Shown: positions 12,275 to 28,031 of the stretch, piece after piece
How positions within the stretch are numbered: position 1 is the stretch's first letter
Layout: every line of letters begins with the position of its first letter
Assembly: GCF_021648855.1 (NCBI RefSeq)
Contig: NZ_JAKJHX010000009.1
Location: forward strand, 31,616-69,867
Direction: 5' to 3'
Length of the DNA stretch: 38,252 bases
DNA from: Tychonema litorale BBK16
Lineage (GTDB): Bacteria > Cyanobacteriota > Cyanobacteriia > Cyanobacteriales > Microcoleaceae
Notes under the pieces: model-generated
What the model saw: only the letters and a program-made list of their open reading frames with translations
Told to the model about the DNA's origin: nothing
The model's database searches: none
Program-made: the position numbers and the translations under genes

Positions 12275-13435
12275 TTATTCTGCATCTAATATTTCGACAA
12301 TCTTAACTTTCAAAATGCCACGACTTAATTTAACAGTCAATTCCTCTCCCAATACTAAACCATCCGTTGTACGGACGATCGTAGCATCACTCTGGATCAC
12401 CGCAGCATAACCTCTTTCCAACACCGCCGCCGGATTTAATGCCGACAACTTTTCTTGCAACACTTCCAATTTACCACGGGCTTGCTGTAAACTTCGAGAT
12501 GTCACAGGTAAACGCTTTAATCGATTTTGTAGTAGTTGTAAATTCTGTTCTTCTTTTTGAAATCTTGCCAGTACAACATTTGATAAATTGGCAACTCGCT
12601 GTCGATGTTGGAGGTAAATATCTGCTATATTCGGTACTGCTTGTTCCGCCGCCGCCGTCGGAGTATGAGCTCGTCTATCGGCAACTAAATCGGCGAGAGA
12701 TTCATCTCTTTCGTGACCAATGCCTGTTATGATTGGAATCGCACAATTTGCGATCGCCCTGACAACTCGTTCATCATTAAAACTCCCCAAATCTTCGGCT
12801 CCACCGCCACCTCGTCCTAAAATGATCAAATCAGCCCTACCGTCCAATTCCACGCGGGCGATCGCCCTCACAATCGCCGCAGGAGCCAATTCGCCCTGCA
12901 CCCCAGTCGCCGATAACAACACCTGCAAACCGGGATATCTTTGAGCTAGGGTGCGCTGAATGTCTCCCCAAGCCGCACTGGTATCGGATGTTACCACGGC
13001 GACAATTTTCGGGTGTGCGGGGATTGGCCGTTTTCTCGCGGGATCGAAGAAACCCTCGGCTTCTAAGCGCGATCGCAATTGTTGCAATCGCAAAGCTTGT
13101 AAGCCTTCCCCAGCGATTAGACATTCGGAAACAGTCAACTGGTACTCGCCACGAACTTTGTAAACGCGGAGGCTTCCCAATACCAGTAATTTCCCTCCTT
13201 TTGTCGGTTTCTCTATTAATTTTTGCCGCTGAGATTTCCAGACTACGCAGCGAATAGCAGCGCTTTTGTCGGCATCGCAGAGGGTGAAATAGGTGCCGCT
13301 GGGGTGTTCGGAAATGCTAGCAACCTCCCCCGTTACCCAGAGGGATTGCAAGTGGCGATCGCCTTCCAACAATTCTTGCAGGTAAGATGTTAGTCTAGCA
13401 ACGGATAAGGCTTTATCGGAAACGGTTGAAGTCAT
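12275..13435 (-). CDS. xseA: Exodeoxyribonuclease VII large subunit
   Basis: A 386-residue XseA. The N-terminal OB-fold for single-stranded DNA spans about 8 to 100 (VARLTSYLQELLEGDRHLQSLWVTGEV, SGTYFTLCD). The catalytic core follows with PKIVAVVTSDTSAAWGDI, LIILGRGGGGAEDLGSFNDE and TGIGHERDESLADLVADRRAHTPTAAAE. A coiled-coil region and a C-terminal ALNPAAVLERGYAAV segment complete it. It is slightly shorter than the Escherichia coli protein (456), mainly in the coiled coil, as is usual in cyanobacteria. It is first in the xseA-xseB operon. Confidence 0.95.
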   Translation of the reverse strand: MTSTVSDKALSVARLTSYLQELLEGDRHLQSLWVTGEVASISEHPSGTYFTLCDADKSAAIRCVVWKSQRQKLIEKPTKGGKLLVLGSLRVYKVRGEYQLTVSECLIAGEGLQALRLQQLRSRLEAEGFFDPARKRPIPAHPKIVAVVTSDTSAAWGDIQRTLAQRYPGLQVLLSATGVQGELAPAAIVRAIARVELDGRADLIILGRGGGGAEDLGSFNDERVVRAIANCAIPIITGIGHERDESLADLVADRRAHTPTAAAEQAVPNIADIYLQHRQRVANLSNVVLARFQKEEQNLQLLQNRLKRLPVTSRSLQQARGKLEVLQEKLSALNPAAVLERGYAAVIQSDATIVRTTDGLVLGEELTVKLSRGILKVKIVEILDAE

Positions 13436-13438
13436 TCG

Positions 13439-13470
13439 ATTTTAGATTTTAGATTTTAGATTTTGGATTG
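13439..13470. repeat. GATTTTA heptamer array before xseA
   Basis: About four copies of GATTTTA lie within four bases of the xseA start codon, in place of a recognisable ribosome-binding site. It is the same pattern as upstream of the Uma2 and histidine kinase genes. Confidence 0.75.
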
Positions 13471-13596
13471 ATTCCATAAATAAATCCGGGGGCTTGTACC
13501 ATCAAGAAATTCTTGGTCATCGATCGTCCTAATTTGACAAATTTAGGCTAATATATTTAAGGTGATTTATTCAATTTATTGGGAAGTAATCTATCA

Positions 13597-14334
13597 ATGA
13601 TATCAGATGTTATGACTTCTATGAATATGCTGCGTCAAGAGGCCGAGGCGATCGGTATTACTGAGGAAGAAGCCAGGAAGTATGGCAACATTCGACACAG
13701 AAGAACTTGGTCTTTGGCGATCGAACATCATCTCTCAATGCAAGGAGAACGCGATCGCATTCAACCATCTTTTACCACTCCCGATCTCAACTCCTCCCTT
13801 CCCCAGACAGACTCTCCGCAGCCTGAAAATCACTCTGACTTGAAGGATTACGGTATTCAACTGACGGCGAATCTAGGAGAATATAGGAATACCACTCAAG
13901 ATAAAGTGGCATCTGTTGTTACGCCTAGACAACCAATATCGTATTCGGTGCGATCGCACAGCACATCCATTCACTATCTCAAGCAAACTGGAAGTTTTGA
14001 TCAAGTAGTTCAAAACCATATTAAAGCTTTAAAAACGGCATCCCATACTCACACAAATTTGTCGAATTCATCCACGATCAATTGGGTTTGTCCTGAGTGC
14101 GGGCCCCAAGGCGAAATTAGTTGTCACCTTTGTGAAGGTGTTGGAAATATTACTGATATTTCAGCTATTGGATGGACGCTAGCTTACATGGAAATGTTGG
14201 GTTGTTCAGCCCGTGAAATAGAACCAATCAGGAGATTATCGCCTGCATCAAACATTCTGGAATTGAATCTAAAAACTTGTTTGGCTATTAAACAAAGTGC
14301 AGAAGTTTTAGCCCGCACTGAAAAATGGTTATAG
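13597..14334 (+). CDS. Hypothetical protein with CxxC zinc-ribbon-like motifs
   Basis: The 245-residue product starts at the ATG at 13597, which has GGAAG 10 bases upstream. The N-terminal 40 residues form charged helices (MLRQEAEAIGITEEEARKYG). The middle (about 60 to 160) is polar and probably disordered. The C-terminal third contains VCPECG and CHLCEGVG, two CxxC knuckles 12 residues apart that resemble a half DnaJ-type zinc finger, followed by a helical end (LAIKQSAEVLARTEKWL). I do not recognise a named family, and a protein- or nucleic-acid-binding role is only inferred. It is monocistronic, divergent from xseA and convergent with gmk. Confidence 0.6.
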   Translation: MISDVMTSMNMLRQEAEAIGITEEEARKYGNIRHRRTWSLAIEHHLSMQGERDRIQPSFTTPDLNSSLPQTDSPQPENHSDLKDYGIQLTANLGEYRNTTQDKVASVVTPRQPISYSVRSHSTSIHYLKQTGSFDQVVQNHIKALKTASHTHTNLSNSSTINWVCPECGPQGEISCHLCEGVGNITDISAIGWTLAYMEMLGCSAREIEPIRRLSPASNILELNLKTCLAIKQSAEVLARTEKWL

Positions 14335-14410
14335 CAGAAGGAAGAAGGCCCTTCGACTACGCTCAGGAACCGAAGAAGGAAGAAGGAAGAAGGAAGAAAA
14401 TAGTCAACAG
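14335..14410. repeat. GGAAGAA heptamer array and TCAACAG repeat
   Basis: GAAGGAAGAAGGAAGAAGG-type units are followed by TAACAGTCAACA units. The latter extend to the 3' end of gmk and supply its stop codon and last few codons. Confidence 0.75.
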
Positions 14411-14968
14411 TTAACAGTCAACAAACAAGACAGATTCCAGCCCTTTCAAAGCAACTTCCAAATCGTCATTGATAACTTGAAAGTCAAATTCCCCTGCTGC
14501 TTCAATTTCTGCTTTAGCCCGCACTAACCGACGGGCGATCGCATTTTCGGCATCCAAACCCCGACTCCGCAGACGGCGTTCCAACTCTTCCCAAGAAGGA
14601 GGTAAAATAAAAATTCGCACCGCCTCTGGAAACTTATCTCTAATTTGTCTAGCACCTTCGAGTTCAATTTCCAGCAATATGGACTTTCCCTCCTCGATAC
14701 CTTGCTGGAGAGCAAAGTAGGGAGTACCATACAAATTACCCGCAAACTCAGCCCATTCAGCCAACTCGTCTACTTCAATCATTTGTTCAAAGCGACTGCG
14801 ATCGACAAAATAGTAATGTTGTCCCTCAATTTCTCCTTCACGAGGCGATCGAGTTGTCACCGATACAGAGAGATGTAATTCGGGATGGCGCGTGAGGAGC
14901 GATCGAACTAAAGTGCCTTTCCCTACACCGCTAGGCCCCGTCAGAACAATTAATTTCCCTGATTTCAT
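14411..14968 (-). CDS. gmk: Guanylate kinase
   Basis: Phosphorylates GMP to GDP with ATP. From the ATG at 14968 the protein is 185 residues, beginning MKSGKLIVLTGPSGVGKGT, with the P-loop at 11 to 18. It continues with the GMP-binding segment (TTRSPREGEIEGQHYYFV, AEWAEFAGNLYGTP) and the lid (RRLRSRGLDAENAIARRL). An upstream TTG at 14992 would add eight residues, but the ATG matches known cyanobacterial starts better. The last residues (FVDC) and the stop come from a TCAACAG-type repeat, so the C-terminus seems to have drifted. remA lies immediately upstream on the same strand. Confidence 0.95.
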   Translation of the reverse strand: MKSGKLIVLTGPSGVGKGTLVRSLLTRHPELHLSVSVTTRSPREGEIEGQHYYFVDRSRFEQMIEVDELAEWAEFAGNLYGTPYFALQQGIEEGKSILLEIELEGARQIRDKFPEAVRIFILPPSWEELERRLRSRGLDAENAIARRLVRAKAEIEAAGEFDFQVINDDLEVALKGLESVLFVDC

Positions 14969-15046
14969 CTTAAGAATAGAAACTTGTAACAATTTAAGTT
15001 GTCACTTAGTGTAAACTGTCAGAGCTTAAATTGCAACTACACAAGC

Positions 15047-15313
15047 TCAATCATCCCGACTTTGACCATCTTTGCTCACCACAAAACGATTAGCCACCGT
15101 TTCCGGCTGAATCGCCGAGAGAATAACGTGACTCGAATCAGTAATAATTACCGCCCTCGTGCGGCGTCCGTAGGTAGCGTCAACCAGTTGTCCTCGCTCC
15201 CTCGCATCAGTAATAATCCGTTTAATTGGCGCTGACTCTGGGCTAACAATGGCAATAACTCGATTGGCAGACACAATATTACCAAAACCGATATTAATTA
15301 ATTGAATATCCAT
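15047..15313 (-). CDS. remA: RemA/DUF370-family regulatory protein
   Basis: The 88-residue protein matches DUF370, the family of Bacillus subtilis RemA, a DNA-binding activator of extracellular matrix genes that forms oligomeric rings. The hallmark [27 protein letters not shown] and [29 protein letters not shown] segments are present. In many bacteria this gene sits directly upstream of gmk, as here with a 78-base gap. Its targets in cyanobacteria are not established from this sequence. Confidence 0.92.
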
Positions 15314-15628
15314 GAAAATCTTAATGTATGTGAATGACCAACTGTTATTCCTAACTTCTAATCATATATACAAACATTGTTTTTTACCAGTTTGAAATTA
15401 ATTTCAACTAATTTTTTAAATCGCTAGCTATATTTGTTTGACTGAAAGCAATTGGGTCATCTATCCCGCATTCATCTGTGGGGAAAATCTAAATAGCCAA
15501 GTACCCCAATCTTTATCAAAACTTTAAAAATAGTCGCTATTTCCTGCTGTATATTAAAGATTTGGTAAAGTTATCGATTTCTAGTTGCAAATAAAAGTAT
15601 AAAGTGGTTCAAAAATCAAAGCTATTAA

Positions 15629-15772
15629 CTTGGAAAATCTAAACGACTGTTAAAATTGCAGAATACAGTCCGTAAAAATACTGATAAAAAAATAGAAAAT
15701 ACTCGCCAATGGCTTTATGCTGACCGTAATAACACTGATATGTATCGGACTATCGACGATATTTTGGGGTAG
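15629..15772 (+). pseudogene. Possible truncated ORF ended by a dispersed repeat
   Basis: A 47-codon open frame has a protein-like end (NTRQWLYADRNNTDMYRTID, then DILG). It has no ATG at its beginning (a TTG at 15656 is possible), and its TAG stop is formed by the junction with the GTAGGGAAACGG repeat. It may be the C-terminal relic of a lost gene. I do not recognise the family. Confidence 0.3.
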
Positions 15773-15829
15773 GGAAACGGCATTGCCGTCTCCTCAATTT
15801 TGCCGTAGGGAAACGGCATTGCCGTCTCC
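15769..15829. repeat. Two tandem copies of the GTAGGGAAACGGCATTGCCG repeat
   Basis: Two near-identical units carry an inner GGCATTGCC hairpin and end TCTCCTCAAT. They are the same family as at window start and at 11077. Confidence 0.85.
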
Positions 15830-15936
15830 TCAATAATCAGGACACGGCACTCACTCAATAATCAGGACACTCCGAGAGCCCAAGGAGTGTCCCTACCCTC
15901 CCGATGCCCGATGCCCAATTCCCAATTCCCAATTCC

Positions 15937-18030
15937 CTATAACCCGCTATGTCTCAACAAAGCTTTAGTGCTGGGTTCGCGCCCCCGGAAAGTTTTAAAC
16001 ACTTCCATCGGATGCAAACTGCCGCCTAATCCTAATACTGTATCGCGGAAAAGCTGACCCGTAGATGCGATCGCACTTTCATCTTCTAACCCCGCTTCCT
16101 CAAACGCAGCAAAAGCATCAGCACTCAGCACTTCCGCCCATTTATAACTGTAATAACCAGCCGCATAACCACCAGCAAAAATGTGTCCGAAAGCGCACAA
16201 AAATGCGTCTTCTGCCAGAGGAGGCAAAACAGTAGTAGTTTCAGCAATGCGATTGCGGACATCGGACACAGTTTCACTACCACCGGACTGATATTTGTGG
16301 TGTAATTCGATATCAACTCTACTAAAATGTACTTGTCTGAGCATGGCACTTCCGCTCATGTAATGGCGCGATGCTAATAGCTTTTGGTAATAGTGTTCGG
16401 GCAAAGTTTCTCCAGTTTGATAATGCTTTGCCATGCCGAACAAGGTAGCACGATCGTAACACCAATTCTCCATAAATTGACTGGGCAATTCCACCGCATC
16501 CCACTCAACATTATTGATGCCAGATGCTCCAGCATAATCCACATTTGTCAACATATGCTGCAAGCCGTGACCGAATTCGTGGAACAAAGTTTCTACTTCC
16601 AAGAAAGTCATTAAACTTGGTTTATCATCAACGGGTGGACTTTGGTTGCACGTTAAATATGCCACAGGTAAGCGCGTCTTGGTAACACCGTCTTCCACAA
16701 ATTTAGCGCGCACCACACACTCGCTCATCCAAGCACCACCACGCTTTTCCTCCGGGCGATTGTACGCATCTAGATAGAAATAGGCGATCGCATTTCCCGA
16801 CTCATCATCGATTTGGAAATAGCGCACATCTTTGTTCCACAAAGGAGCTTGACCATCCGCAGCAGTTACTGTCACACCGAACAGCCGTTTGACTAATCCA
16901 AATAAACCCTCCAATACCTGCGGCAAAGCAAAATAAGGACGCAATTCTTCGGCGCTAAATGCAAACTTTTCTTCCCGTTGCCGTTCCGACCAAAAACCAA
17001 TATCCCAGTGTTTCAAATCTCCAGCTTCCGCAGCACCTTTTTCAGCAGCAAAAGCCTTCAATTCTGCTAAATCTTTGACAGCAGCATTATAACTAGCAAG
17101 GCGCAATTCTTCTAATAAAGCTTCGACTGCTGCAACGTTAGGAGCCATTTTGCTCGCCAAACTCAAGTCTGCATAACTACTGAAACCGAGCAAAGCAGCT
17201 TGTTCCTGGCGTAGTGCTAAAATGCGATCGGTCAATGGCCAGTTATTCAATTCTCCACTAGAAGCACGGCTAATAAAAGCTTTGTACAATTTTTCACGCA
17301 AGTCACTGCGGGTGCTGTGCTGCATGAAAGGGCCGTAACTAGGGAAGTCTAAAGTAATGCGCCAAGGGCCGTTTTCAGCATCGGCATTTTCTGCACCGGC
17401 ACTGCGAGCAACTTGGGCTGCGAAACTCAACAAACTCGGTGGTAAACCATCAATTTCGTCTTTGTTCGTGAGGGTGAGACTAAAGGCTTTGGTAGCATCG
17501 AGGACGTGATTAGAAAATAGGGTAGTAGCTTCTGCTAATTCTAATTGAATGGCATTGAAACGCTCTTTTTGCTCACCTTCTAAACCGACACCAGAAAGCT
17601 CAGCATCTCGAATAGCAGCTTCGACAATTCGCTGTTGAGCTGAATCTAAGCTGTCCCAATTTTCGCTAGCCCGCAGTGCTTTAAAAGCTTCATAAAGTGG
17701 TTTACTTTGACTGAACTTGCTCCCAAATTTTACTACTTCTGGCTGTACAGTTTCGTGAGCCGATCGCAATTCCGCGCTATTTTTCACCGCCATCAAGTGT
17801 CTAATAATCCCCCAAGTCCAATTTAAACGGTCTCCGAGTTCCTGTAAAGGTTCTACTAAGCCACTCCAAGTAGGCTCGACAGACACTTCTAAGTCAGCGA
17901 GTTCTGCTTCTAGTTGAGTCAGCAGGTGGGTGATGGCAGGGACAATGTGTTCTGGTGCGATCGATTCAAAAGGAGGCAGTCCTTTGCCAATTAGTAACGG
18001 ATTCTCAGTAATTGTAACGGTTGCTGTCAT
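15937..18030 (-). CDS. M3-family oligopeptidase (oligopeptidase A/PrlC-like)
   Basis: A 697-residue thimet-type zinc oligopeptidase that degrades short peptides, including cleaved signal peptides, in the cytoplasm. The helical N-terminal half begins ENPLLIGKGLPPFESIAPEHI, as in PrlC. The zinc motif LFHEFGHGLQHML has His484, Glu485 and His488. The third ligand is the Glu of WDAVELPSQFMENW about 28 residues later, and the conserved YYSYKWAEVLSADAF substrate segment is near the C-terminus. The length is full and no signal peptide is seen. It is monocistronic. Confidence 0.95.
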   Translation of the reverse strand: MTATVTITENPLLIGKGLPPFESIAPEHIVPAITHLLTQLEAELADLEVSVEPTWSGLVEPLQELGDRLNWTWGIIRHLMAVKNSAELRSAHETVQPEVVKFGSKFSQSKPLYEAFKALRASENWDSLDSAQQRIVEAAIRDAELSGVGLEGEQKERFNAIQLELAEATTLFSNHVLDATKAFSLTLTNKDEIDGLPPSLLSFAAQVARSAGAENADAENGPWRITLDFPSYGPFMQHSTRSDLREKLYKAFISRASSGELNNWPLTDRILALRQEQAALLGFSSYADLSLASKMAPNVAAVEALLEELRLASYNAAVKDLAELKAFAAEKGAAEAGDLKHWDIGFWSERQREEKFAFSAEELRPYFALPQVLEGLFGLVKRLFGVTVTAADGQAPLWNKDVRYFQIDDESGNAIAYFYLDAYNRPEEKRGGAWMSECVVRAKFVEDGVTKTRLPVAYLTCNQSPPVDDKPSLMTFLEVETLFHEFGHGLQHMLTNVDYAGASGINNVEWDAVELPSQFMENWCYDRATLFGMAKHYQTGETLPEHYYQKLLASRHYMSGSAMLRQVHFSRVDIELHHKYQSGGSETVSDVRNRIAETTTVLPPLAEDAFLCAFGHIFAGGYAAGYYSYKWAEVLSADAFAAFEEAGLEDESAIASTGQLFRDTVLGLGGSLHPMEVFKTFRGREPSTKALLRHSGL

Positions 18031-18129
18031 GTGATTTTCGGGTAGCAGGTTGAAAAAGCTGAACTAAACAGGTTAGCTTTTAATGGTTTAACACAAATGG
18101 CAAAAAAAGGAGAACTACGAGCTGATTTC

Positions 18130-18993
18130 CTAAGTATTCTGCAACTGCTTCACCACAGAAATTAACCGCTTGAGGTGTGGTTTAACAATTTCTTGATGTT
18201 CCTGTTCCAAATTATCAATCTGAGCCTTAAAACTAGACAAATCCCCTGATTGTTGTGCTTGAACTTGTAGTTGGCTTTGGAAATTAGCCATTACTTTCTG
18301 GATTTCCAGAAATCGAGTATTGACCCCTTCCCAGTCATCTTGAGTAATCGAAGTTTCTCCCAATATTTGAGTCGTGCTTTGCAGTTCTTCAATCGCCTGT
18401 TCAATTGCTTCGAGATTTGTCGGTGATTCCACAGATAAATCTTGCAATTGTTCGCTGACTTGCTGGCGGACATCAATCACAGCGGATGCGACAATTTCTT
18501 GCAAAGAAGCTACCGACTGGCCCAAACTCAGCAACTGCTCCTCAATATCAATCGAATCCTCAAAGCTTTCTGGGCGTGGTAGTGCAGCCATTTGCTGTCG
18601 AACTGCTTCAATATCTGTTGACAACTGGTTACGGACTTTCAGAATTACCGTCGCCGCGGTTTTCTCAATTTTGTTAACAGACTTTTGGACTTCAGCAATT
18701 TCCGAGTTTTGATAAACGCGGACTTGCTGCTCAAATCGGTAACGGTTAGCAACATTCAGCGACAAAGCTAAAGTCAGGGGAGCCACCCCATAAAAAGCTT
18801 GACCAGACAGCGCCACGGCTAGGGAACCGACACCAGAGGCTGCGAGGGAGGCGTACTCTGCCAACTCCAGCCAGTGTCTTTGAGGAACAGTTTGCCTCAA
18901 ATGCTTAGAAACTGAGGGGTTTGGCTGCCGCAGAACTCTTTGGGTCATAGTATTTTCCCGTTGTTGATAAGGTTGCGAGATTTGGTTGAGCAT
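18130..18993 (-). CDS. Coiled-coil membrane protein, unknown function
   Basis: The 287-residue protein has a basic N-terminus and one or two hydrophobic helices at about 47 to 82 (EYASLAASGVGSLAVALSGQAFYGVAPLTLAL). A long hydrophilic alpha-helical region follows to the end, rich in Gln, Glu, Leu and Ile with heptad spacing. This predicts a membrane-anchored coiled coil. I see no enzymatic motif. Similar 'hypothetical' proteins are common in cyanobacteria. The start at 18993 is kept, but the ATG at 18948 (preceded by GGGAAA) is an equal alternative. Confidence 0.65.
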   Translation of the reverse strand: MLNQISQPYQQRENTMTQRVLRQPNPSVSKHLRQTVPQRHWLELAEYASLAASGVGSLAVALSGQAFYGVAPLTLALSLNVANRYRFEQQVRVYQNSEIAEVQKSVNKIEKTAATVILKVRNQLSTDIEAVRQQMAALPRPESFEDSIDIEEQLLSLGQSVASLQEIVASAVIDVRQQVSEQLQDLSVESPTNLEAIEQAIEELQSTTQILGETSITQDDWEGVNTRFLEIQKVMANFQSQLQVQAQQSGDLSSFKAQIDNLEQEHQEIVKPHLKRLISVVKQLQNT

Positions 18994-19215
18994 CGATTTT
19001 TCTCTTTTTTAACTTATATTTTTTACATTATTCCGTGCCAATCTGATGTTTTTGCCTGAGCGAGTCAGTTCAGGATGGCTGGCATATTATGATGTATCTA
19101 GTGTATTTAGCGGTTTGTGGCGATCGCCCCAACGCGCCCCTATTCTACAGGATTTTGCGCGCAATTCCTACTGAATATCAATTACCAGTCCCAAATTTAT
19201 TGTAATAATTGACCA

Positions 19216-19350
19216 ATGAACTCAGAAAAACCCGGAATTGGCGATCGGCTCAAATCTATTTTCAGTATCACAATCTTTGTGATCCTTGTATTAGGAGTAG
19301 GTTTTTTGAGCATTAATTTTATTTTAGCTATTTATGCAAAAATTTCTTAA
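19216..19350 (+). CDS. Small single-span membrane protein, 44 residues
   Basis: MNSEKPGIGDRLKSIFSITI then a continuous hydrophobic helix (FVILVLGVGFLSINFILAIY) ending AKIS. Its clean N-in topology and a HIP1-like GGCGATCGG inside suggest a native small membrane protein. No convincing ribosome-binding site is visible, and the family is unknown to me. Confidence 0.5.
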   Translation: MNSEKPGIGDRLKSIFSITIFVILVLGVGFLSINFILAIYAKIS

Positions 19351-19357
19351 CATATAG

Positions 19358-19471
19358 TGCAGGAGGTATCAACTACATCGCGTTGGAGATTATCGGATTG
19401 TTTATGACATTAATAATGAGCAAAAGCGGGTGGTTGTGACTGTTATTGCTCATCGTCATGAAGTGTATTAG
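19358..19471 (+). pseudogene. RelE/ParE-type toxin, C-terminal remnant
   Basis: A frame opening right after a stop codon reads RRYQLHRVGDYRIVYDINN, then EQKRVVVTVIAHRHEVY, then stop. The HRVGDYRIVYDI beta-strand pair and the IAHRHEVY terminus are diagnostic of RelE-family mRNA interferases. The first 50 or so residues and any start codon are missing, so this is a decayed toxin gene. No partner antitoxin is next to it. Confidence 0.75.
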
Positions 19472-19544
19472 GGCGCAATGCAGGGAAGATAAAGGCGATC
19501 GCACTTTGGGGAAATAAGGGCGATCGCCTGTGATTCTATTTCAA

Positions 19545-19751
19545 CTACACAAACATCGATCGACCTTTCGGTTGTGGAATAGGGCGACCCAGTTTGTTAG
19601 CCGTTTCTATCCACTCCTGCATAATAATCTCTAGATTCTGCAATACTTCTTGATAATTTTCACCATCACCAGCACATCCCGGCAATTCAGGGACTTCGGC
19701 AATAAATGCCTGGTCTTCCTCACTCCAGTAAATAATTACTTCGTACTTCAT
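19545..19751 (-). CDS. HicB-family antitoxin-like protein
   Basis: The 68-residue protein has the partial RNase-H-like fold of HicB: YEVIIYWSEEDQAFIAEVPELPGCAGDGENYQEVLQNLEIIMQEWIETA. It ends shortly after this domain without a DNA-binding ribbon-helix-helix or helix-turn-helix. No hicA-like toxin gene is adjacent. Its ATG overlaps the stop of the upstream HEPN-like gene by ATGA, so the two are co-translated. It may be an orphan HicB or part of a composite module. Confidence 0.85.
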   Translation of the reverse strand: MKYEVIIYWSEEDQAFIAEVPELPGCAGDGENYQEVLQNLEIIMQEWIETANKLGRPIPQPKGRSMFV

Positions 19752-20107
19752 ATTGCATTAATAATCTGATTTATAATTCTATCTACATCTTGAATTAACA
19801 ACCTGACCTCAGCAGTGGTAATCTGTTCTTTAGGAGCTTTATGAATTTTGGCATTTTGGTATTCGGGATAAAGAAACCTACTTCTGTAATCAGAGTTAAC
19901 CATCTTTGCAATTGTTGCCGCTACCAGATGTATATTAACCGATTTAGCAAGGTGTTTTTTGCATAAACTCAAAAACATATTTAACTTAGTTTCATGATTG
20001 ACAGGAATTGAACTCTTGAAATGAACAATCACAGCCGAACCAATAGACTCTAAGGCATGATACGTCAAAAACCCAATAACTTCTTGCGTCCCATTTTCAT
20101 CAGACAC
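19748..20107 (-). CDS. HEPN-like helical protein, probably frameshifted N-terminus
   Basis: The 119-residue helical protein starts at GTG 20107. Features such as LTYHALESIGSAVIVHF, a KLNMFLSLC helix and a terminal FLYPEYQ...PKEQITTAEVRLLIQDVDRIINQII resemble small HEPN proteins that partner minimal nucleotidyltransferases. The catalytic Rx4-6H is not evident. The frame stays open upstream to a stop at about 20174, and the extra residues (TRAKDVYTDIAQRYIASAKQ) look like the missing first HEPN helix. They overlap the previous gene in the +1 frame without an ATG. A single-base indel separating two halves of one protein is plausible. Confidence 0.5.
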   Translation of the reverse strand: MSDENGTQEVIGFLTYHALESIGSAVIVHFKSSIPVNHETKLNMFLSLCKKHLAKSVNIHLVAATIAKMVNSDYRSRFLYPEYQNAKIHKAPKEQITTAEVRLLIQDVDRIINQIINAI

Positions 20108-20603
20108 AAGCTGTTTTGCGCTGGCTATGTATCGCTGCGCTATGTCTGTGTAAACATCTTTCGCTCTCGTACACTAACACCCCATTTTTTAATTTGTGCT
20201 TGAGATAGCGAAACTTAGAAGGTAATAATTCATAATCAATGATTTTAAATATCGGTAACAACAGAAACTCTATATAAAAATCAGCAAAAATCTCCGAAAG
20301 TTCTTGAACTACTGGAAAATCTCTTTCAAATTTGCCCAAAATAAATATAGTCAGAGTTTCGCGGTTTTTATTTTTGACAACAATGGGATAATTATTAATA
20401 GGTTCTAAGCGCTCGTAGTCTTTATACAAATCTTCGACAATAATCAAATCCAGATTTTCTAATTTTTCTAATCTCTCTTTCCCTGCTGCTAAACTATCAG
20501 CAATCAATTTGTAAGCGGCCAAAAAATCATCCGGGTAGGATGCTATAGGAATTGCCAATCCTTTGATATTGTCGATAATATTTTCCACACTTGTAACTGC
20601 CAT
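20100..20603 (-). CDS. Unknown protein, possibly degenerate nucleotidyltransferase-like, with out-of-frame tail
   Basis: From the ATG at 20603, with a strong AAGGAG site 7 bases upstream, the product is 167 residues. Its body contains ENLDLIIVEDLYKDYERL and ETLTIFILGKFERDFPVV. The region LLPIFKIIDYELLPSKFR then KNGVLVYESER resembles the closing strand and 'GVLLYE' end of minimal nucleotidyltransferases. I cannot find the GS...DxD active site, so any such relation is weak. The last 18 residues (CLHRHSAAIHSQRKTACV) look like an out-of-frame reading of the downstream HEPN-like gene, suggesting a frameshift near 20160. Confidence 0.45.
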   Translation of the reverse strand: MAVTSVENIIDNIKGLAIPIASYPDDFLAAYKLIADSLAAGKERLEKLENLDLIIVEDLYKDYERLEPINNYPIVVKNKNRETLTIFILGKFERDFPVVQELSEIFADFYIEFLLLPIFKIIDYELLPSKFRYLKHKLKNGVLVYESERCLHRHSAAIHSQRKTACV

Positions 20604-20668
20604 ATTCAATCTCCTTGTGGAAAGCTTCCCAGCTTGCTTGTATGTTAGACTTCTATTGTACACCTTAC

Positions 20669-20872
20669 TCAAAAAGGTGCATCTGGTTCCTGTCCCAATT
20701 CTTTGCAAAACTCTAGATAATCATCGATGGAGTTTTGGAATTCTTGGTTAGCTTCTTCAATAGTTTGTGCTTTAAAAGTCACTACGTCATTAATATCAAG
20801 CACTCGCCCGAACAGAATTTCCGCTTCTAAATCTACTTCAATGCTAGCACTGTAACCCTTGTAAGTCATCAT
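20669..20872 (-). CDS. HicB-like antitoxin, truncated
   Basis: The 67-residue protein begins MMTYKGYSASIEVDLEAEILFGRVLDINDVVTF and continues EEANQEFQNSIDDYLEFCKELGQEPDAPF. This is the HicB-type domain that normally continues into an Arc-like ribbon-helix-helix segment (PF-SGKF...RIPPE). Translation stops right at that junction, so the DNA-binding end is missing. No hicA toxin is present. It is first of four minus-strand genes and may be their leader gene. Confidence 0.8.
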   Translation of the reverse strand: MMTYKGYSASIEVDLEAEILFGRVLDINDVVTFKAQTIEEANQEFQNSIDDYLEFCKELGQEPDAPF

Positions 20873-20949
20873 GGTTGTAATACTTCTTCCTATTTCAATA
20901 GCAGAGGAGAACGCATATTTTATAAATCTCTACTTGCTGAGACTTGCGA

Positions 20950-22038
20950 TTAATTTGCAGTTAATACATAAATTGCTTGATTCTTTTTAGGATATTTTAA
21001 GACATTTATCATTTCAATTTGTAAAGATATATCTTGCTGCTTTATTATTCTAAGAACTTGTTTTGATTCTCCATTCTTATTTCTTAGTTCTCTAATTATA
21101 GCTGCTTTGCAATAAGATGAATTTGGGTTGACAATAAAAATTGTATCTTCTAATGATAAAGTAACACGATTAACGCTTGCAGTTAAGACTTTTCTATTTG
21201 AAAGATAATTTGTAATTTCGCCAATTTTTTTGGCTTTATTTATATTAATGTTTTTATTTAAAAAATGATAAATTAATAAATCAGCTAATGCCTGACATAT
21301 AGCATCCACAAAATCACACAAGTTTAGTAAGGAATCATAACCTAAAGATTCATTTTCTTGAACTAAACTATGAGCACTTGCATTGCGGTATTCGATAAAT
21401 AGGTCTAGTTGTTTTTCAAGTGTATTTGATTCCCCCAGTATATTATCAATATATTCTTTAACATTTTGGTGATTTTTAAGCCATTTCCACCCCGACTCAA
21501 ACTCTGTAAGACCTACAGAGCCAAATAACTTTTTCAGTTCACCTTCTCGTAAGTTATTTTGAGAATTTATTAGAAAAGACTCTGGTATTAATTTATATTT
21601 ACTCTTCTTGTTAATTCCATAAGATAAGCCTTGAATGATTTGATCTAACTTCAAGTCATATCTATTCTCTCCAAATGTAGAAATTAATTTGCATACACCA
21701 ATTCTATGAGTTTTACGGATTACTTCCTCTAGCTGATCGTATTTAGTAACTAACTGTGGTAAAGCCTCTAGCCATTTACGAATTAATTTCTCAACAAAGT
21801 TCTCATAAGTTGCATAAAGTTGAACAACCACTGCACTATGTTCATAAATCTTCCATTCTGTTATGGAAATTGAATTTTCTGATAAACTTAGTTTTAATTC
21901 TGCCGCTTTTTTTCTAACCTCTTCATCATTGGTAAATAAAATATCTCTTAGTGACTGGTTTTGCTTCAAAATAAAACGAATAGCTTGAGTTTTTTTCCTA
22001 ACCTGTTCTAGTGAAATTTCAATTGTTTCAATCAACAT
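20950..22038 (-). CDS. MAE_28990/MAE_18760-type HEPN ribonuclease-like protein
   Basis: The 362-residue protein matches the HEPN family named after Microcystis MAE_28990. HEPN proteins are mostly metal-independent RNases in toxin-antitoxin, CRISPR and abortive-infection systems. The N-terminal helices end with HSAVVVQLYATYENFVEKLIRKWLE. The catalytic Rx4-6H is intact as EYRNASAHS (Arg218 and His223). A C-terminal beta-rich extension (about 275 to 362: VTLSLEDTIFIVNPN, ISLQIEMINVLKYPKK) could be a small regulatory domain. It starts 6 bases after the DUF262 gene stop, so the two form an operon. The region is AT-rich with no HIP1 octamers, consistent with horizontal transfer. Confidence 0.85.
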   Translation of the reverse strand: MLIETIEISLEQVRKKTQAIRFILKQNQSLRDILFTNDEEVRKKAAELKLSLSENSISITEWKIYEHSAVVVQLYATYENFVEKLIRKWLEALPQLVTKYDQLEEVIRKTHRIGVCKLISTFGENRYDLKLDQIIQGLSYGINKKSKYKLIPESFLINSQNNLREGELKKLFGSVGLTEFESGWKWLKNHQNVKEYIDNILGESNTLEKQLDLFIEYRNASAHSLVQENESLGYDSLLNLCDFVDAICQALADLLIYHFLNKNININKAKKIGEITNYLSNRKVLTASVNRVTLSLEDTIFIVNPNSSYCKAAIIRELRNKNGESKQVLRIIKQQDISLQIEMINVLKYPKKNQAIYVLTAN

Positions 22039-22044
22039 AGATAT

Positions 22045-23295
22045 TTACTTGGACAGAATCACCTGGGACAACATTTCCTCAAATGAATTTAATCGCTTGT
22101 GTATATCAGTTTTTGTGTTTTTACCTTTACCTCTAAATAACTCAGAGTTATCTGCTTTCAGTAATTGTTGAGTAGCTTCAATGATCTGACTTTTTCTCTG
22201 TTTCAAAATTTGAGCATTAGGTAAATTTTTACTTAAGGAAACCATAACAGCATCATAATATGCTTTATATGGTTCATCAGCCCAATCCCAATTTTTAGAA
22301 TTGTTAAGTATATAAGGTCTAAATAAATGTTCTCCATAAATATCATGGGCAATATTTATTGTATCCTTGAAAATACCGCTTAAAAATGCAGTGTCTTCTT
22401 TAGAAAAATCTAAACTTTTAATCATATATAAATCCATGAATTTTTCTAAATTACCTTTAAAGTTTTCGTAATGACGCAATGCAAAAAAACGTAAGATTAA
22501 CTCAACATCTTCCATTTTCTTATAAAGATTATTTTTTTCTTTTTCTTTTTCTTTTTTAGGGTCATTCCGATCAGAGTCAGGAATACCCCAAGCATTTTTA
22601 AAAGTGGGATCATCAGCTAACTCAATCAGACTATCATTAAATTGACCATGATATAAACAGTTACGAATTTCTTGGTTACTCAACTCAACTCCACCTGTAT
22701 TCAGACGTTCAAAGGTAAGTCTCTTTAAATACATTGCGTCTTCAAGTGTTTTCGCTGATTCTGTAATAACCACTATAGAGGATAAAGTACGACGATCTAT
22801 TCCAGCTTGAATTTCTGTTGGTAAATTACTATATTTTCGACCATTTAATTCTGGCCAAAGTTGTAATCCAGTTAAAATAAGCTTATCCTCATAGAAATCC
22901 CTAAGAGCACTAATTCTTTGTTGACCGTCTATAACTTCATAGGAATTATATTTTTTTTCATACAAAATCACTGGTGGTACTGGCAAATTAATAATGAAAG
23001 ATTCAATCAAAAGAGATTGTTGTTCAGGTTTCCATCGAGGACGACGCTGAAAAAAAGGACGTAAATCCATATAGTCTGGTTTTTGCAGTGCATCCACAAA
23101 AAGTGGTAGCTTTTCTCGATTAAACTCCATTAAAATTCTGCTATTTCCTGATTCATATTTAGTATTTATTTCGTCATCAGACATTTTTTCATCGTGGGAT
23201 TTCTCCTTCTTCGATTTGTCCCACATATTTAATTCAGAAGGCGAAAAATATTGATTTATTTCTTTTTCTTGAGTCTGTTTATAAGTCCTGGTCAT
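22045..23295 (-). CDS. DUF262 (GmrSD N-terminal, DGQQR) protein
   Basis: The 416-residue protein is a DUF262/ParB-like nucleotide-dependent module. LRPFFQRRPRWKPEQQSLLIESFIINLPVPPVIL precedes the signature VIDGQQRISALRDFY (Asp123 to Arg127), then FERLNTGGVELSNQEIRNCLYHG. These motifs occur in GmrSD and in the phosphorothioate-sensing SspE, where NTP hydrolysis drives restriction. No DUF1524/HNH nuclease follows; the C-terminal half is helical. A Lys/Glu tract (KKEKEKEKNN) is encoded by a slippage-prone hexamer run. A strong AGGAGG site lies 8 bases before the ATG. The HEPN gene follows at 6 bases, so this protein probably senses or gates and HEPN executes; that division is inference. Confidence 0.85.
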   Translation of the reverse strand: MTRTYKQTQEKEINQYFSPSELNMWDKSKKEKSHDEKMSDDEINTKYESGNSRILMEFNREKLPLFVDALQKPDYMDLRPFFQRRPRWKPEQQSLLIESFIINLPVPPVILYEKKYNSYEVIDGQQRISALRDFYEDKLILTGLQLWPELNGRKYSNLPTEIQAGIDRRTLSSIVVITESAKTLEDAMYLKRLTFERLNTGGVELSNQEIRNCLYHGQFNDSLIELADDPTFKNAWGIPDSDRNDPKKEKEKEKNNLYKKMEDVELILRFFALRHYENFKGNLEKFMDLYMIKSLDFSKEDTAFLSGIFKDTINIAHDIYGEHLFRPYILNNSKNWDWADEPYKAYYDAVMVSLSKNLPNAQILKQRKSQIIEATQQLLKADNSELFRGKGKNTKTDIHKRLNSFEEMLSQVILSK

Positions 23296-23360
23296 GTTTT
23301 TAACCTCCTAGAAAATATAAATGAATAAATATGCGAAAAGTAGAGGTAGGTGATAACTCA

Positions 23361-23496
23361 TTATAACAACACTTCGGGCAGTTTTTGATTGCCAACCGTA
23401 TAATAAGGGTTTCAGGGCGATTGGGCAATGGATCTGCTAAAGGAAAATCAAGGGTTTCAGACTATGACCTAAAAACTGTCTGGACTGCTGTTATAA
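23361..23496. mobile_element. 136-bp MITE-like element
   Basis: The two 26-bp ends are imperfect inverted repeats (21 of 26) beginning TTATAACA and ending TGTTATAA. Inside is a direct repeat AAGGGTTTCAG. It sits between the DUF262 operon and chlH. TTATAA at both ends may be the target sequence. Confidence 0.6.
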
Positions 23497-23526
23497 ATTA
23501 AGAGGCTAATTTTAGCCTCTTAATTT
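23495..23526. terminator. Bidirectional hairpin terminator after chlH
   Basis: AAATTAAGAGGCTAA and TTAGCCTCTTAATTT form a perfect 15-bp stem with a 2-base loop, ending 12 bases from the chlH stop. Read on the minus strand it would end chlH. Confidence 0.75.
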
Positions 23527-23537
23527 ATATATGGTAG

Positions 23538-26500
23538 TTAGTCTACCCCTTCAATCCGGTCTTCCACCTCCTGATACAACTCACGCAACCTGTCCAAATT
23601 ACTCTCCGAAGTCTCCCAATAACCCCGGCCATTCACCTCAAGCAAAGTGCTCACAATCTTACGGAAAGAATGAGGATTCAAATTCAGCAAACGCTTCTGC
23701 ATCTCCTCATCTTGGATAAACGTACCGTTCACATCCTCATACACCCAATTGTCCACCGCGCCCGCAGTCGCACTCCATCCAGTCGTATTCACCAGACGCT
23801 TAGAAATCTCCCGCACGCCCTCATAGCCGTGGGATAACATCCCCTCGTACCACTTCGGATTCAGCAGCTTAGTCCGCGAATCTAAACGCACGGTTTCTGA
23901 TAGCGTCCGTACCTGGGCGTTCGCTGTTGTGGTATCAGCAACAAAGGATGTTGGTTTCTTGCCATCTGCGCGCAAACTGCCGATTAATTTAGTTGGATCG
24001 GAGTCGAAATAGTGCGACACGTCGGTTAGTGAAATCTCCGCAGAATCTAAGTTTTGGAAGGTGACTTCAGCAGTTTTTAAGGATGATTCAAAAATCTGCC
24101 TGTCTTGTTCCATTGTGCCGGGATTGTCGGAAGAAAAGGCGAAGGATTTGCGGGTTAAGTACATTTCCTGCAACTCGGCTTCGGTTTCCCAAGTGCTGTT
24201 TTCTACCGCTAAGTTGACGTTAGATGAATAGGAACCGGAAGCATTGGAAAAGACGCGGGTGGCTGCTTGGCGCAGGTTGATTCCCATTTCTTCCGCTTGC
24301 TTCAAGGCGTGTTTGCGGACGAAGTTCATTTCTAAGGGTTCGTCGGCTTCTGCTGCCATTTTCACCGCTTTATCTAACAGGTTCATTTGGTTGATGAACA
24401 AGTCGCGGAAGACGCCGGAACAGTTAATTACTACGTCGATTCGAGGCCGTCCCAATTCTTCTAAAGACAGCAATTCCAGCTTATTAACGCGGCCTAAAGC
24501 GTCGGGTACTGGCTTCACTCCCACCATCCACATTACTTGCGCGAGGGATTCGCCGTAAGTCTTGATGTTGTCGGTTCCCCAGAGCACAACGGCGATGGTT
24601 TCTGGGTAATTTCCGTCGTTATCGGTGCGCTGTCTTTCTAATAGCCGATCGACTACAACCTTAGCAGACTTAATCGCCCCTGTTGTAGGGATTGACTGCG
24701 GGTCCAAAGCGTGCATATTCTTCCCAGTCGGCAAAACATCCGGGTTGCGAATCGGATCGCCACCTGGGCCGGGGATAATGTATTCGCCCTCTAGCGCGCG
24801 CAACAGTGCGCCCAATTCGTTATCGGCGCAAACTTGCTGCAAACAGAATTCCAGATACTCAAACAGCGGTTTAATCAGGTCTGAATCGACTTTTTTGTAA
24901 CCGGCTGCGTGTAAGGATTCAATCCAAGGTGTTTTCTTGCCCATGTTGAAGAAATTCAACTTGGAAACTAGGGAAACTCGACCCTCAGCATCGGTTTGTT
25001 CTTTCACTAAAGCGCTGACAGCATCGCGACAGGCTAAGGTGATGTTTTGCAGCAATTCGACATCGGCTAAAATGCCTTTGTCGTTGTTGGTGTAGATGTC
25101 GTCAATATTCCGATCGCAACTTAAAGCAATAATCCGCGACAAACTGACTAATCCGTCTTCTTCCCGGTCTAAATTGGCGATATTGACGAGTGTTGCGATC
25201 GCCTCTTCCGCAGTCGGTGGCTTCCCAACAACGTGCAAACCACAAGGTAACAACCGCGACTCAATCTCCATCAACTTGCGGTAAACCAAGCCAACTAAAT
25301 TATCCCGTTCCTCCGCAGTCATACCAGCAGCAACCCCCCGTTCTTGTTCGGGAGGTAAGGTGATATCTTTGTCCAAATTCACCAAACGGCATTTTTCAAC
25401 GATCGCATCCACGATCGGCACACCGCGCCCAGTACCCTTCAAAGTTTGATAAGAAGCAATCAACTCGCTGAGTTCCTGCAAACCTTTATACAACCCCGCA
25501 TTTTCAGCCGGAGGAGTTAGATAGCTGATCGTTTCAGCATAACTGCGACGCTTAGCAATTGTTGCCTCACTCGGATTATTAGCCGCGTAATAATAGAGGT
25601 TGGGAATCTTGCCGATCAAACTGTCGGGATAACAATCTCCAGACATTCCCATCTGCTTACCGGGCATGAATTCTAGGGAACCGTGAGTGCCAAAGTGCAG
25701 CACCGCATCCGCACCCCAAATGCGCTCCAAATATGTGTAGTAAGCAGCAAAACCGTGGTGCGGACTAGCAGAACGAGAGAACAACAACCGCATCGGATCG
25801 CCTTCGTATCCAAAAGTAGGTTGCACTCCGATAAACACGTTACCAAAATGTTTGCCAAAAATCAGCAAATTTTGTCCGTCACTGTTTAAATTCCCTGGAG
25901 GTGGGCCCCAATTTTCTTCCAAACGTTCCGAGTAAGGCGTGAATTCTTCATACTCAGCTACGGACATCCGGTAAGCAACATTCAATTCCGGGCTTTGGTA
26001 TTGGGCTGTTGCGTCATGGATGACTTCTTGCATCAGTTTTTCGGCGGAATCTGGCAGTTCTGGCAAGTCGTAACCGTTGCCTTTTAAGGCTTTCAAGACT
26101 TCGTAAATCGAGCCGAAAACGTCTAAATAAGCTGCGGTTCCTACGTTACCTTTGTCGGGAGGGAAACTGAAAACTGTGATCGCAACTTTCTTGTCTAATT
26201 TCGGTTTGCGGCGCAGCATTGCCCATTTTAGAGAACGCTGGGCGATCGCCTCAATTCTATCTTGCAGCGCGATCGCCTTTCCAGTTGCGCCATCACGTCC
26301 CGACACAATAATTGGTTCGATCGCACCATCCAACTCAGGAATCGCCACTTGCAGCGCAACTTGAATCGGGTGCAAGCCTAAATCGCTATCTTCCCACTCT
26401 TCAGTCGTTTGGAAAACCAGCGGCAAAGCCACCATGTAAGGACAATTCAATTTCTTCAAAGACTCGATCGCCTTTGGGTGATCTTGTTTCGCCGGGCCAC

Positions 26501-27533
26501 CCACCAAAGCAAAACCAGTCAAAGAAACCACCGCATCAACGATCGGCAGAGGCGTAACACCTTTTGCCGCCACTTCCAAGAAGAAAGTTTCCACAGGTTT
26601 CGAGAAGTCCAAACCGCCAGCAAAAATTGGGATTACCCGCGCGCCCATTGCCTCCAATTCCTGCACCATCGCTACATAGTGCGCGTCATCTCCTGTTACT
26701 AAGTGAGTCCGTTGCAACACTAAACCAATGCAAGGTGCGAGGGGATCTTTGAGATCCGCAGAAATATCTGTGCGGGCATTAAACCAGTTCAGATATCCTT
26801 TGACATCTTCAAACATCGACGGTGCCAAAGGATGCCAAATTCCCATATCCAGGTAAACAACTGGATCGTGGAAAGTTGTTTTTGACAAATCTTTGAAGAC
26901 ATATTTCTGTGACAACATCAACAAGAAGTTTTCCAAGTTTTCTTGGGAACCTCCTAGCCAATATTGGAAACTCAGCATGAAATTCCGAGCATCTTGGGCT
27001 TTGTCAAGAGGCAAATATTTCAGCACTTTCGGCAAAGTTTGCAGCAGTTTCAGCATTCCATCTTGGAAGGAACTACCGGATTTTTCCTTCCGTTTTTTCA
27101 TGAATTCGCCGATCGCACTTTTGCTTTGTCCCAATTGTGCCATCGAGAAACTGCCCATTTTATTCAGGCGCATCACCCCAGGCATCGACGGGAAGACGAC
27201 GGCGACATCCAGTTTGTCGCGCAACGGCGCTACCGCCTCTACCACTTTTTCGGCCAAATCTTCGATAAAAATTAGAGAAGCTATAAATATGTTGGCATCC
27301 GCGACATCCCGCTTGAAAGCTTCGTAGTTTTCCGGGCTGCGGAGTTCCTCGATCAGGTAGCCGCTGATTTCGATCGCCAAATTTGGATTTTTCTTATTTA
27401 TCGATCGAACCGCCGCCGACAGGGCGCTTTGATACTGCGGTTCGAGTACGACATAGACCACCTTGAGCAGCGATCGTCCTTGCAAGTTTTCCGGTACGAT
27501 GTGGCGAACGGTGGGCTTGACGTGAGTGAACAT
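23538..27533 (-). CDS. chlH: Magnesium chelatase subunit H
   Basis: The 1331-residue large subunit binds protoporphyrin IX and, with ChlI and ChlD, inserts Mg2+ at the first committed step of chlorophyll synthesis. The family start [35 protein letters not shown] is present, as are [15 protein letters not shown] (near 635) and the CobN/BchH C-terminal region [18 protein letters not shown]. The C-terminus ends [21 protein letters not shown]. The protein is full length. It is monocistronic, with a hairpin terminator. The 498-base upstream region is AT-rich and must carry its promoter, but I see no unambiguous boxes on this strand. Confidence 0.99.
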
Positions 27534-28031
27534 CCGGTTAGGCTCCTTTAAGATGCTGTTTTCGCGAATCGGGAATTTTTTACCCCATAAGCATTTTTAC
27601 CAGAAAACGCTTGCCATTAACCGATTCGATCCTGCCAATTACACAATTCGACAAATTTATTGCAACTTTTCGTTACATTTTTTGCTGAATTTATTGAGTA
27701 AATACTCCAAATTTTATTTACAAAAATTTACTTGACTTATATTGTAAAATGTGTATAGAGAAAATTTCCAAAAAAATCCCGAAACAAGTTCCAATTTTTG
27801 TATAACAGATCATACTTGCGAGAGAGAGATTAACAGATGTAAAAAGACGATAATTTATGGATGTAGAATAAACAAATAGGATCATTCATGTTTAACAAAA
27901 CTTGATATTTACCCAGGAACTTAAAACCATTTTATAACTTCTGAATTCTATAAGTTCCCGATCCGCGATCGACTGCATGAAAAACTCATTAGTATTCACA
28001 ATCAAACTCATCAAAACCTAAGTAAAAAAAC
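27534..28031. other. AT-rich divergent promoter region between chlH and paralog 1
   Basis: A 498-base gap. Candidate plus-strand boxes are TTGACT at 27732 and TATAGA at 27754, 16 bases apart. A 24-base segment at 27904 to 27927 (GATATTT...CAGGAACTTAAAAC) is repeated at 29165, upstream of the second paralog. No gene is visible. Confidence 0.6.
27732..27759 (+). promoter_or_regulatory. Candidate sigma-70 promoter
   Basis: TTGACT and TATAGA with a 16-base spacer lie 273 bases before the first repeat-protein gene. This is a sequence match only. Confidence 0.3.

Follow-up and report, generated by a model that had tools for sequence, protein, structure and literature searches.

Anti-phage systems that combine a DUF262 protein with a HEPN protein are known, but they have barely been studied. 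The closest described example is PD-T4-2, which Table 1 of PMC10952713 lists under both DUF262 and PF18735 HEPN, and whose deletion from Escherichia coli ECOR65 is reported to raise plaquing by phage T4, so that it protects against that phage (PMC9519451; Vassallo et al. 2022); no worked-out mechanism for it was found in the literature searched, which was largely open-access. Earlier, the survey of HEPN domains by Anantharaman et al. in 2013 had noted a “Ribo L-PSP-HEPN ... operon with ParB” as well as “MAE_28990 ... In operon with a ParB nuclease and DNA methylase genes” (PMC3710099). DUF262 proteins are described as binding or hydrolysing nucleotides and gating an effector, and HEPN proteins as commonly being ribonucleases (RNases; both PMC10952713, PMC3710099), while ParB-fold domains have been reported as DNases and/or nucleotidases (PMC5512222). 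The locus considered here is a two-gene DUF262-HEPN operon of the cyanobacterium Tychonema litorale BBK16, lying within a stretch of 38,252 nt of the forward strand (NZ_JAKJHX010000009.1:31,616-69,867; all of this stretch is called the window below). The pair is real, conserved and acquired, and very probably related to defence; on balance it is probably an anti-phage operon of the PD-T4-2 kind, from a large subclass with a barrel-bearing HEPN protein, in which the DUF262 protein would gate an RNase aimed at the translation machinery.

The conservation of the pairing was established at several levels. Of 388 genomes surveyed within the class, 125 contain PF18735 and 233 contain PF03235. Searches with the HEPN protein of the window gave 16 other homologues, 13 of them full-length at 67-84% identity, and in the relatives having a HEPN frame of 353-365 aa among the matches listed, a DUF262 gene lies directly upstream in 13 of 13 cases, the junction ranging from a 4-nt overlap to a gap of 15 nt. 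At weaker HEPN matches the pairing is incomplete, one locus (L051, in genome G277) having a DUF262 without a HEPN as judged by phmmer and another (L052, in G339) having neither, and two short loci show a HEPN alone (L026, 2,519 bases covered) or a short piece of DUF262 (L036, 2,694 bases covered). A tblastn search of plasmids with the window HEPN gave no match, and a second protein search, made with alignment A2, contributed one extra sequence (P0018).

Searching with DUF262 alone (alignment A4) gave 160 loci, 80 genomic (the best 80 of 207 relatives) and 80 viral (80 of 95), at each of which the partner was defined as an open reading frame (ORF) of 120 aa or longer whose start lies no more than 60 nt from the end of the DUF262 gene. 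Such a partner is present at 141 of the 160 loci (70/80 genomic, 71/80 viral), at a distance of −44 to +33 nt as judged from mechanically assigned starts, with a median of 0 and with 128 of the 141 falling within 20 nt. These comprise 131 distinct sequences, or 132 aligned sequences once the window HEPN is included; one of the 132 is a DNA methylase according to both PADLOC and Pfam (the partner at L163, to judge from its length of 588 aa). At a threshold of E up to 0.001, PF18735 matches 125 of the 131 (126/132 with the window HEPN) and PF18737 matches 85 of the 132, while the motif R[NH]x3H is present in 123/131 distinct partners against 276 of the 2,769 ORFs of 120-400 aa at the same loci, partners included. 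Pairwise distances among the DUF262 proteins correlate with those among the HEPN cores (r = 0.83 over 84 loci, a value reached in none of 2,000 permutations), which implies that the two genes travel and evolve together. An earlier reading of this DNA, made from its letters alone (the sequence-only reading), had named a lack of conserved pairing in other genomes as the result that would count against it, and what is found is pairing in 13/13 of the relatives with a listed HEPN frame of 353-365 aa and 125/131 PF18735 partners; its view that a HEPN protein here takes the place of DUF1524 beside DUF262 stands as regards the pairing, which is real, but the combination is not new, being that of PD-T4-2 and of the 2013 survey. 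The possibility of a lone degenerate GmrSD is ruled out because the HEPN pairing is conserved. Elsewhere in the same genome there is a second pair (contig C134:9151-10814; loci L005 and L053), in which a 375-aa DUF262 and a 219-aa HEPN overlap by 1 nt.

The individual proteins are largely as the sequence-only reading had described them, including the positions of both frames, which lie on the minus strand, the ribosome-binding site, the DGQQR motif and the intact RNASAH site; what it overlooked was the barrel at the C-terminus of the HEPN protein and the genomic hotspot considered further below. In Pfam, PF03235 is found in the first gene only, and neither gene shows a match to DUF1524 (PF07510) or HNH, so the arrangement that identifies a type IV GmrSD enzyme, namely DUF262 with a fused or adjacent DUF1524 HNH domain, is absent from the pair. 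In an alignment of 89 DUF262 sequences, 14 of 18 tabulated positions are invariant throughout (R84, W88, E98, S99, D123, G124, Q126, R127, F195, R197, N199, Q208, E209 and R211), the variable ones being 125 (Q in 50, L in 27, R in 9), 263, 265 and 269, a pattern such as would be seen for an enzyme or a nucleotide sensor. The leading structural matches of the AlphaFold2 (AF2) model are BrxU, SspE, ParB-type proteins and sulfiredoxin (Srx), and the protein is predicted to be a ParB/sulfiredoxin-fold nucleotide-binding protein without the DUF1524 nuclease.

For the HEPN protein the scores with its two families are 63.0 bits (cut-off 28.4) and 49 bits (cut-off 26.8); with a profile score above the gathering score and an Rx4-6H motif it belongs to the RiboL-PSP/MAE_28990 type. 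In the aligned partners E79 is conserved in 131/132, R218 in 129/132 and H223 in 128/132, and a search with the partner profile gave as its top match a CRISPR-associated protein (4.8e-5). The fold matches listed are filled by one domain, none of them lying over the HEPN core, and they are silent on the fold of that core. The C-terminal domain, residues 269-360, is predicted to form a barrel of the type seen in EF-Tu domain II and eIF5B, although when hhalign was used to compare it with EF-Tu and IF2 domains the resemblance was weak. EF-Tu domain II and the C-terminal barrel of IF2/eIF5B touch the acceptor end of tRNA. The predicted barrel is thus the best clue to the target, in that it may steer the RNase to tRNA or ribosomes, and it provides a testable handle, pointing as it does to the translation machinery. 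It is by no means universal in the family: a hidden Markov model of the barrel recognises it in 59 of the 132 partners, while 73 give no match even at E 10.

Table 1 Features of the DUF262-HEPN locus (window coordinates; AF2, AlphaFold2; pLDDT, predicted local distance difference test; NTP, nucleoside triphosphate).
Feature	Position	Strand	Evidence
DUF262 (GmrSD_N-type) protein, 416 aa, first gene of operon, putative sensor/NTP-binding gate	22045..23295	-	PF03235 6.1e-24; AF2 pLDDT 91.2
Core DUF262 domain (residues 78-215); the C-terminal part after it is helical and stands in place of DUF1524	22651..23064	-	Pfam range; model secondary structure
D123-GQQ-R127 nucleotide-pocket motif	22915..22929	-	89-sequence alignment
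HEPN protein, 362 aa, second gene of operon, putative RNase effector	20950..22038	-	PF18735 4.4e-17, PF18737 1.1e-12; AF2 pLDDT 94.8
All-helical HEPN core, residues 1-265	21244..22038	-	AF2 model
R218-NASA-H223 (Rx4H) catalytic motif	21370..21387	-	132-partner alignment
C-terminal eight-stranded domain, residues 269-360, translation-factor-type barrel (EF-Tu domain II / eIF5B)	20959..21234	-	Predicted fold
Intergenic spacer, 6 nt	22039..22044	-	Sequence
AGGAGG ribosome-binding site, 8 nt ahead of DUF262 ATG	23304..23309	-	Sequence
Segment (about 2.6 kb) not matched in nine same-genus chlH loci, the two genes being its only recognised content	20908..23537		blastn

That the pair was acquired, as had also been proposed from its AT-rich and HIP1-free character, is evident both from its composition and from comparison with relatives. 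The guanine-plus-cytosine content of the two genes is 30.3%, as against 44.7% in the remainder of the window, and they lie within the longest HIP1-free gap (19520-25195) of a window that has 35 HIP1 sites in total. Of 12 same-genus genomes (that of BBK16 included), 11 have chlH, the gene next to which the pair lies, at 92-100% identity and the other one (G389) gives only distant matches, while in G396 the contig ends at the site following chlH. When window 13001-25000 was compared by blastn with nine 12-kb same-genus loci (L245-L253; matches of at least 60 columns), no counterpart of the segment 20908-23537 was found at the post-chlH site in any of the nine, the comparison being confined to that site; in one relative, G123, there is a related pair, which lies on a different contig (L050). 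The left edge of the segment falls at 20899-20907 in L246, L252 and L253 (at 20842 in L247), and its right edge is at chlH, at 23538.

Several of the relatives have restriction genes of other kinds at this site. In L245 and L250 a fused DUF262-DUF1524 GmrSD (697 and 607 aa respectively) starts directly after chlH, in L247 and L252 the same position is occupied by the start of a cluster that includes a C5-methylase-type gene and RE_TdeIII, and in L246 a C5-methylase-type gene lies about 2.4 kb from chlH (the C5-methylase having been scanned with Pfam in L245, and its other copies recognised by the same sequence beginning); inspection of L248, L249, L251 and L253 revealed no restriction gene next to chlH. 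Restriction-type genes thus follow chlH at 5 of 10 sites, the window included, which marks this site as a defence hotspot. The defence-type context expected by the sequence-only reading is therefore found in relatives, in the form of GmrSD and restriction-modification genes after chlH and of methylase neighbours of the pair itself. More generally, the first 5 kb after chlH in these nine loci have repeatedly served within the genus as an insertion site for GmrSD, for restriction-modification genes of the C5-methylase/TdeIII type and for toxin-antitoxin-like genes.

Related pairs also occur on mobile elements. A tblastn search with the DUF262 protein matched 132 plasmid and 24 phage records, of which 8 were examined as loci. 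Pairs were found on a P2-like Vibrio phage (following a CI-type repressor), on Peduovirus P24B2, on a Klebsiella phage (beside tail genes), on a conjugative Shewanella plasmid, on an 8-kb Tabrizicola plasmid, where a methylase gene lies upstream, and on a Bradyrhizobium plasmid, where a gene annotated as an N-6 methylase is found two genes upstream. On plasmid p057_H of Nostoc sp. C057 the HEPN partner (L057:5120-6151, with no HEPN in the gene table) is split over two ORFs of 134 and 204 aa, so that this copy looks broken. At 49 of the 160 loci of the DUF262 search, DUF262 is preceded in the same direction by an ORF of 150 aa or longer whose end lies no more than 200 nt upstream, and 17 of these 49 ORFs contain a DNA-methylase motif ([DNS]PP[YFW], a short pattern counted without a computed background, with L197 and L198 looking alike); Pfam, run on 8 of the 17 and leaving 9 outside the scan, identified all 8 as DNA methylases, and in two of these the methylase is fused to a restriction endonuclease. 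Of other upstream genes, that at L116 is a Schlafen-group helicase according to Pfam and that at L135 has no match. At ten loci (L106, L109, L119, L120, L126, L132, L142, L143, L147 and L152) the methylase-motif ORF is of 363-396 aa and ends 2-70 nt before DUF262; judged from this arrangement these are putative three-gene methylase-DUF262-HEPN operons, and the four of their upstream ORFs that were scanned all match PF01555.

Taken together with protection by the tested relative PD-T4-2, this context in relatives means that a defence role is well supported. On the reading favoured here the DUF262 protein would hold the HEPN protein inactive, presumably in a complex, and would detect invasion, most likely via foreign or wrongly modified DNA and/or through nucleotide binding. 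On being triggered, the HEPN protein would cleave RNA using R218 and H223, guided by the barrel to the translation machinery, with tRNA (at the acceptor end) or the ribosome as the likeliest target, whereupon protein synthesis would stop and the phage could not multiply, an abortive outcome. More tentatively, one might suggest that barrel-type DUF262-HEPN operons are a widespread form of restriction. The DUF262 protein would survey DNA, at some loci next to a DNA methylase that marks the host's own, and the place held in restriction-modification by the DNA endonuclease would be taken by an RNase that stops translation, gripping tRNA or ribosomes by means of its EF-Tu/eIF5B-like barrel. The methylase-linked operons offer a second testable handle in this respect, pointing to DNA modification as the signal that would distinguish self from non-self.

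Among the alternatives, the one that survives best, unlikely as it seems, is that this is a plain toxin-antitoxin pair, the HEPN protein being a growth-inhibiting RNase and the DUF262 protein only its antitoxin, so that the pair would maintain its element rather than sense phage. Two co-directional genes separated by a short gap or overlapping, carried in some relatives on plasmids and adjoined in the window by HicB-like genes, would fit this description; however, so many invariant positions in all 89 DUF262 sequences, the protection against T4 given by PD-T4-2 and the neighbours of restriction-modification type in relatives all favour a sensor of invasion over a simple antitoxin. Less probable again is restriction directed at DNA, with the DUF262 protein recognising invading DNA and the pair cutting or nicking it, the HEPN protein then being a structural partner or itself a DNase in the manner of the DUF1524 domain of GmrSD. 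The methylase-motif ORFs upstream of DUF262 (17/160 loci), the activities reported for ParB-fold domains and the fused GmrSD at the same post-chlH site in relatives could all be accommodated in such a scheme, but neither protein has a DUF1524 or other DNase domain in Pfam, the Rx4H site of HEPN RNases is retained in nearly all partners, and a translation-factor barrel is hard to square with a DNase.

It is very improbable that the pair is a decayed or inactive remnant: it is isolated in the window, its neighbours include a shortened HicB-like gene and the related Nostoc plasmid copy is split, but both frames are full length, with their conserved motif residues intact and a good Shine-Dalgarno site, and full-length HEPN homologues predominate among those found. 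The slightest case is that for a Menshen-type system minus its ATPase genes, considered because NsnA is the best match of the window DUF262 among the PADLOC models (2023 release), at 219.9 bits against 137.4 bits for PD-T4-2_A, but rejected because NsnB takes in ATPase-like proteins broadly (it has 59 matches in this genome, and matches in 14 of 14 control genomes), because it is absent from beside the pair (the only listed match on the contig, of 11.8 bits at C9:46488, being some 6 kb away) and because HEPN is the partner in 125/131 related loci. The HEPN-paired DUF262 proteins of an E. coli plasmid, a P2 phage and the Shewanella plasmid also match NsnA first, implying that NsnA models a clade of stand-alone DUF262 proteins, and in a PADLOC scan of the pair only, the NsnC model matched neither gene.

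Turning to the surroundings of the pair, a scan for promoters and terminators did no better than chance (15 promoter-like sites against 13.6 expected, and 1 terminator against 1.3), no tRNA was found in the window, and no Rfam family exceeded its gathering score in window 15000-28000. Between chlH and the pair lies an inverted repeat with perfectly matching 12-bp arms and a loop of 2 nt (23498-23523), likely to be the chlH terminator, which the scan missed since it requires a loop of 3-8. On the other side, at 20669-20872, is a 67-aa HicB-like gene (PF05534, below the cut-off), whose homologue in L246 runs to 141 aa (1679-2104) and is preceded there by an 86-aa ORF that is missing from the window and is read as HicA-like; as the edge of the unique segment at 20899-20907 adjoins the HicB-like gene, the pair may have replaced hicA. 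Two adjacent hypothetical ORFs beyond it (19748-20107 and 20100-20708) have no Pfam match over the cut-off, and a 1.16-kb stretch covering them is 64% identical in L253 (4921-3770), so that they recur in this accessory region.

How the pair relates to PD-T4-2 itself can be stated fairly closely. Both consist of a stand-alone DUF262 without DUF1524 and an adjacent PF18735 HEPN, and the main PADLOC model for PD-T4-2_B (PDLC04028) matches 7 of the 132 partners (best 8e-52), with two further PD-T4-2_B models matching one each; when ten short partners were scanned singly against PD-T4-2_B, 3 matched, weakly. It follows from such matches that true PD-T4-2 belongs to the same family. In contrast, PD-T4-2_B lacks the barrel and is a HEPN of small size (168 model positions), its models give no match to the 362-aa HEPN of the window at E up to 1, nor any to the 219-aa HEPN of the second pair on C134, and the DUF262 proteins of three loci where the partner does match PD-T4-2_B (L182, L201 and L204) are 26-30% identical to that of the window. 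The pair is accordingly classed as a PD-T4-2-like, barrel-bearing variant rather than as a member of PD-T4-2, and since the main model recognises so few partners, and neither copy in this genome, surveys based on such models will undercount the family.

The RiboL-PSP-HEPN and MAE_28990 operons of the 2013 survey share with this pair the same HEPN Pfam families, a ParB-like partner and methylase neighbours, although the main text of that survey contains neither “barrel” nor “EF-Tu” and refers only to “a novel beta rich domain”, for MAE_18760 (PMC3710099). The combination of DUF262 with HEPN is therefore already known, and it is the barrel of the effector, in this HEPN family, of which the searches, in largely open-access literature, found no description. 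With GmrSD, BrxU and SspE there is a common ParB/Srx fold of the DUF262 domain and a pocket of DGQQR type, but in the window the effector is encoded by a gene of its own and is a HEPN protein rather than a DUF1524 HNH nuclease. PrrC, RloC and RNase LS resemble it only in the way they work, as HEPN RNases that are restrained and then released by phage (PMC3710099), their regulators being other domains or restriction-modification systems and not DUF262. The same holds for the CoCoNuTs, type IV restriction systems predicted to target RNA, which use HEPN-type RNases (PMC11090510) but are built on the McrBC branch with coiled coils, “DUF262” being absent from the main text of that paper. One CoCoNuT type does, however, have an OB-fold for which EF-Tu domain II is among the top structural matches (PMC11090510), and by analogy it offers a parallel for the predicted occurrence of HEPN and EF-Tu-II-like domains within one restriction-type system.

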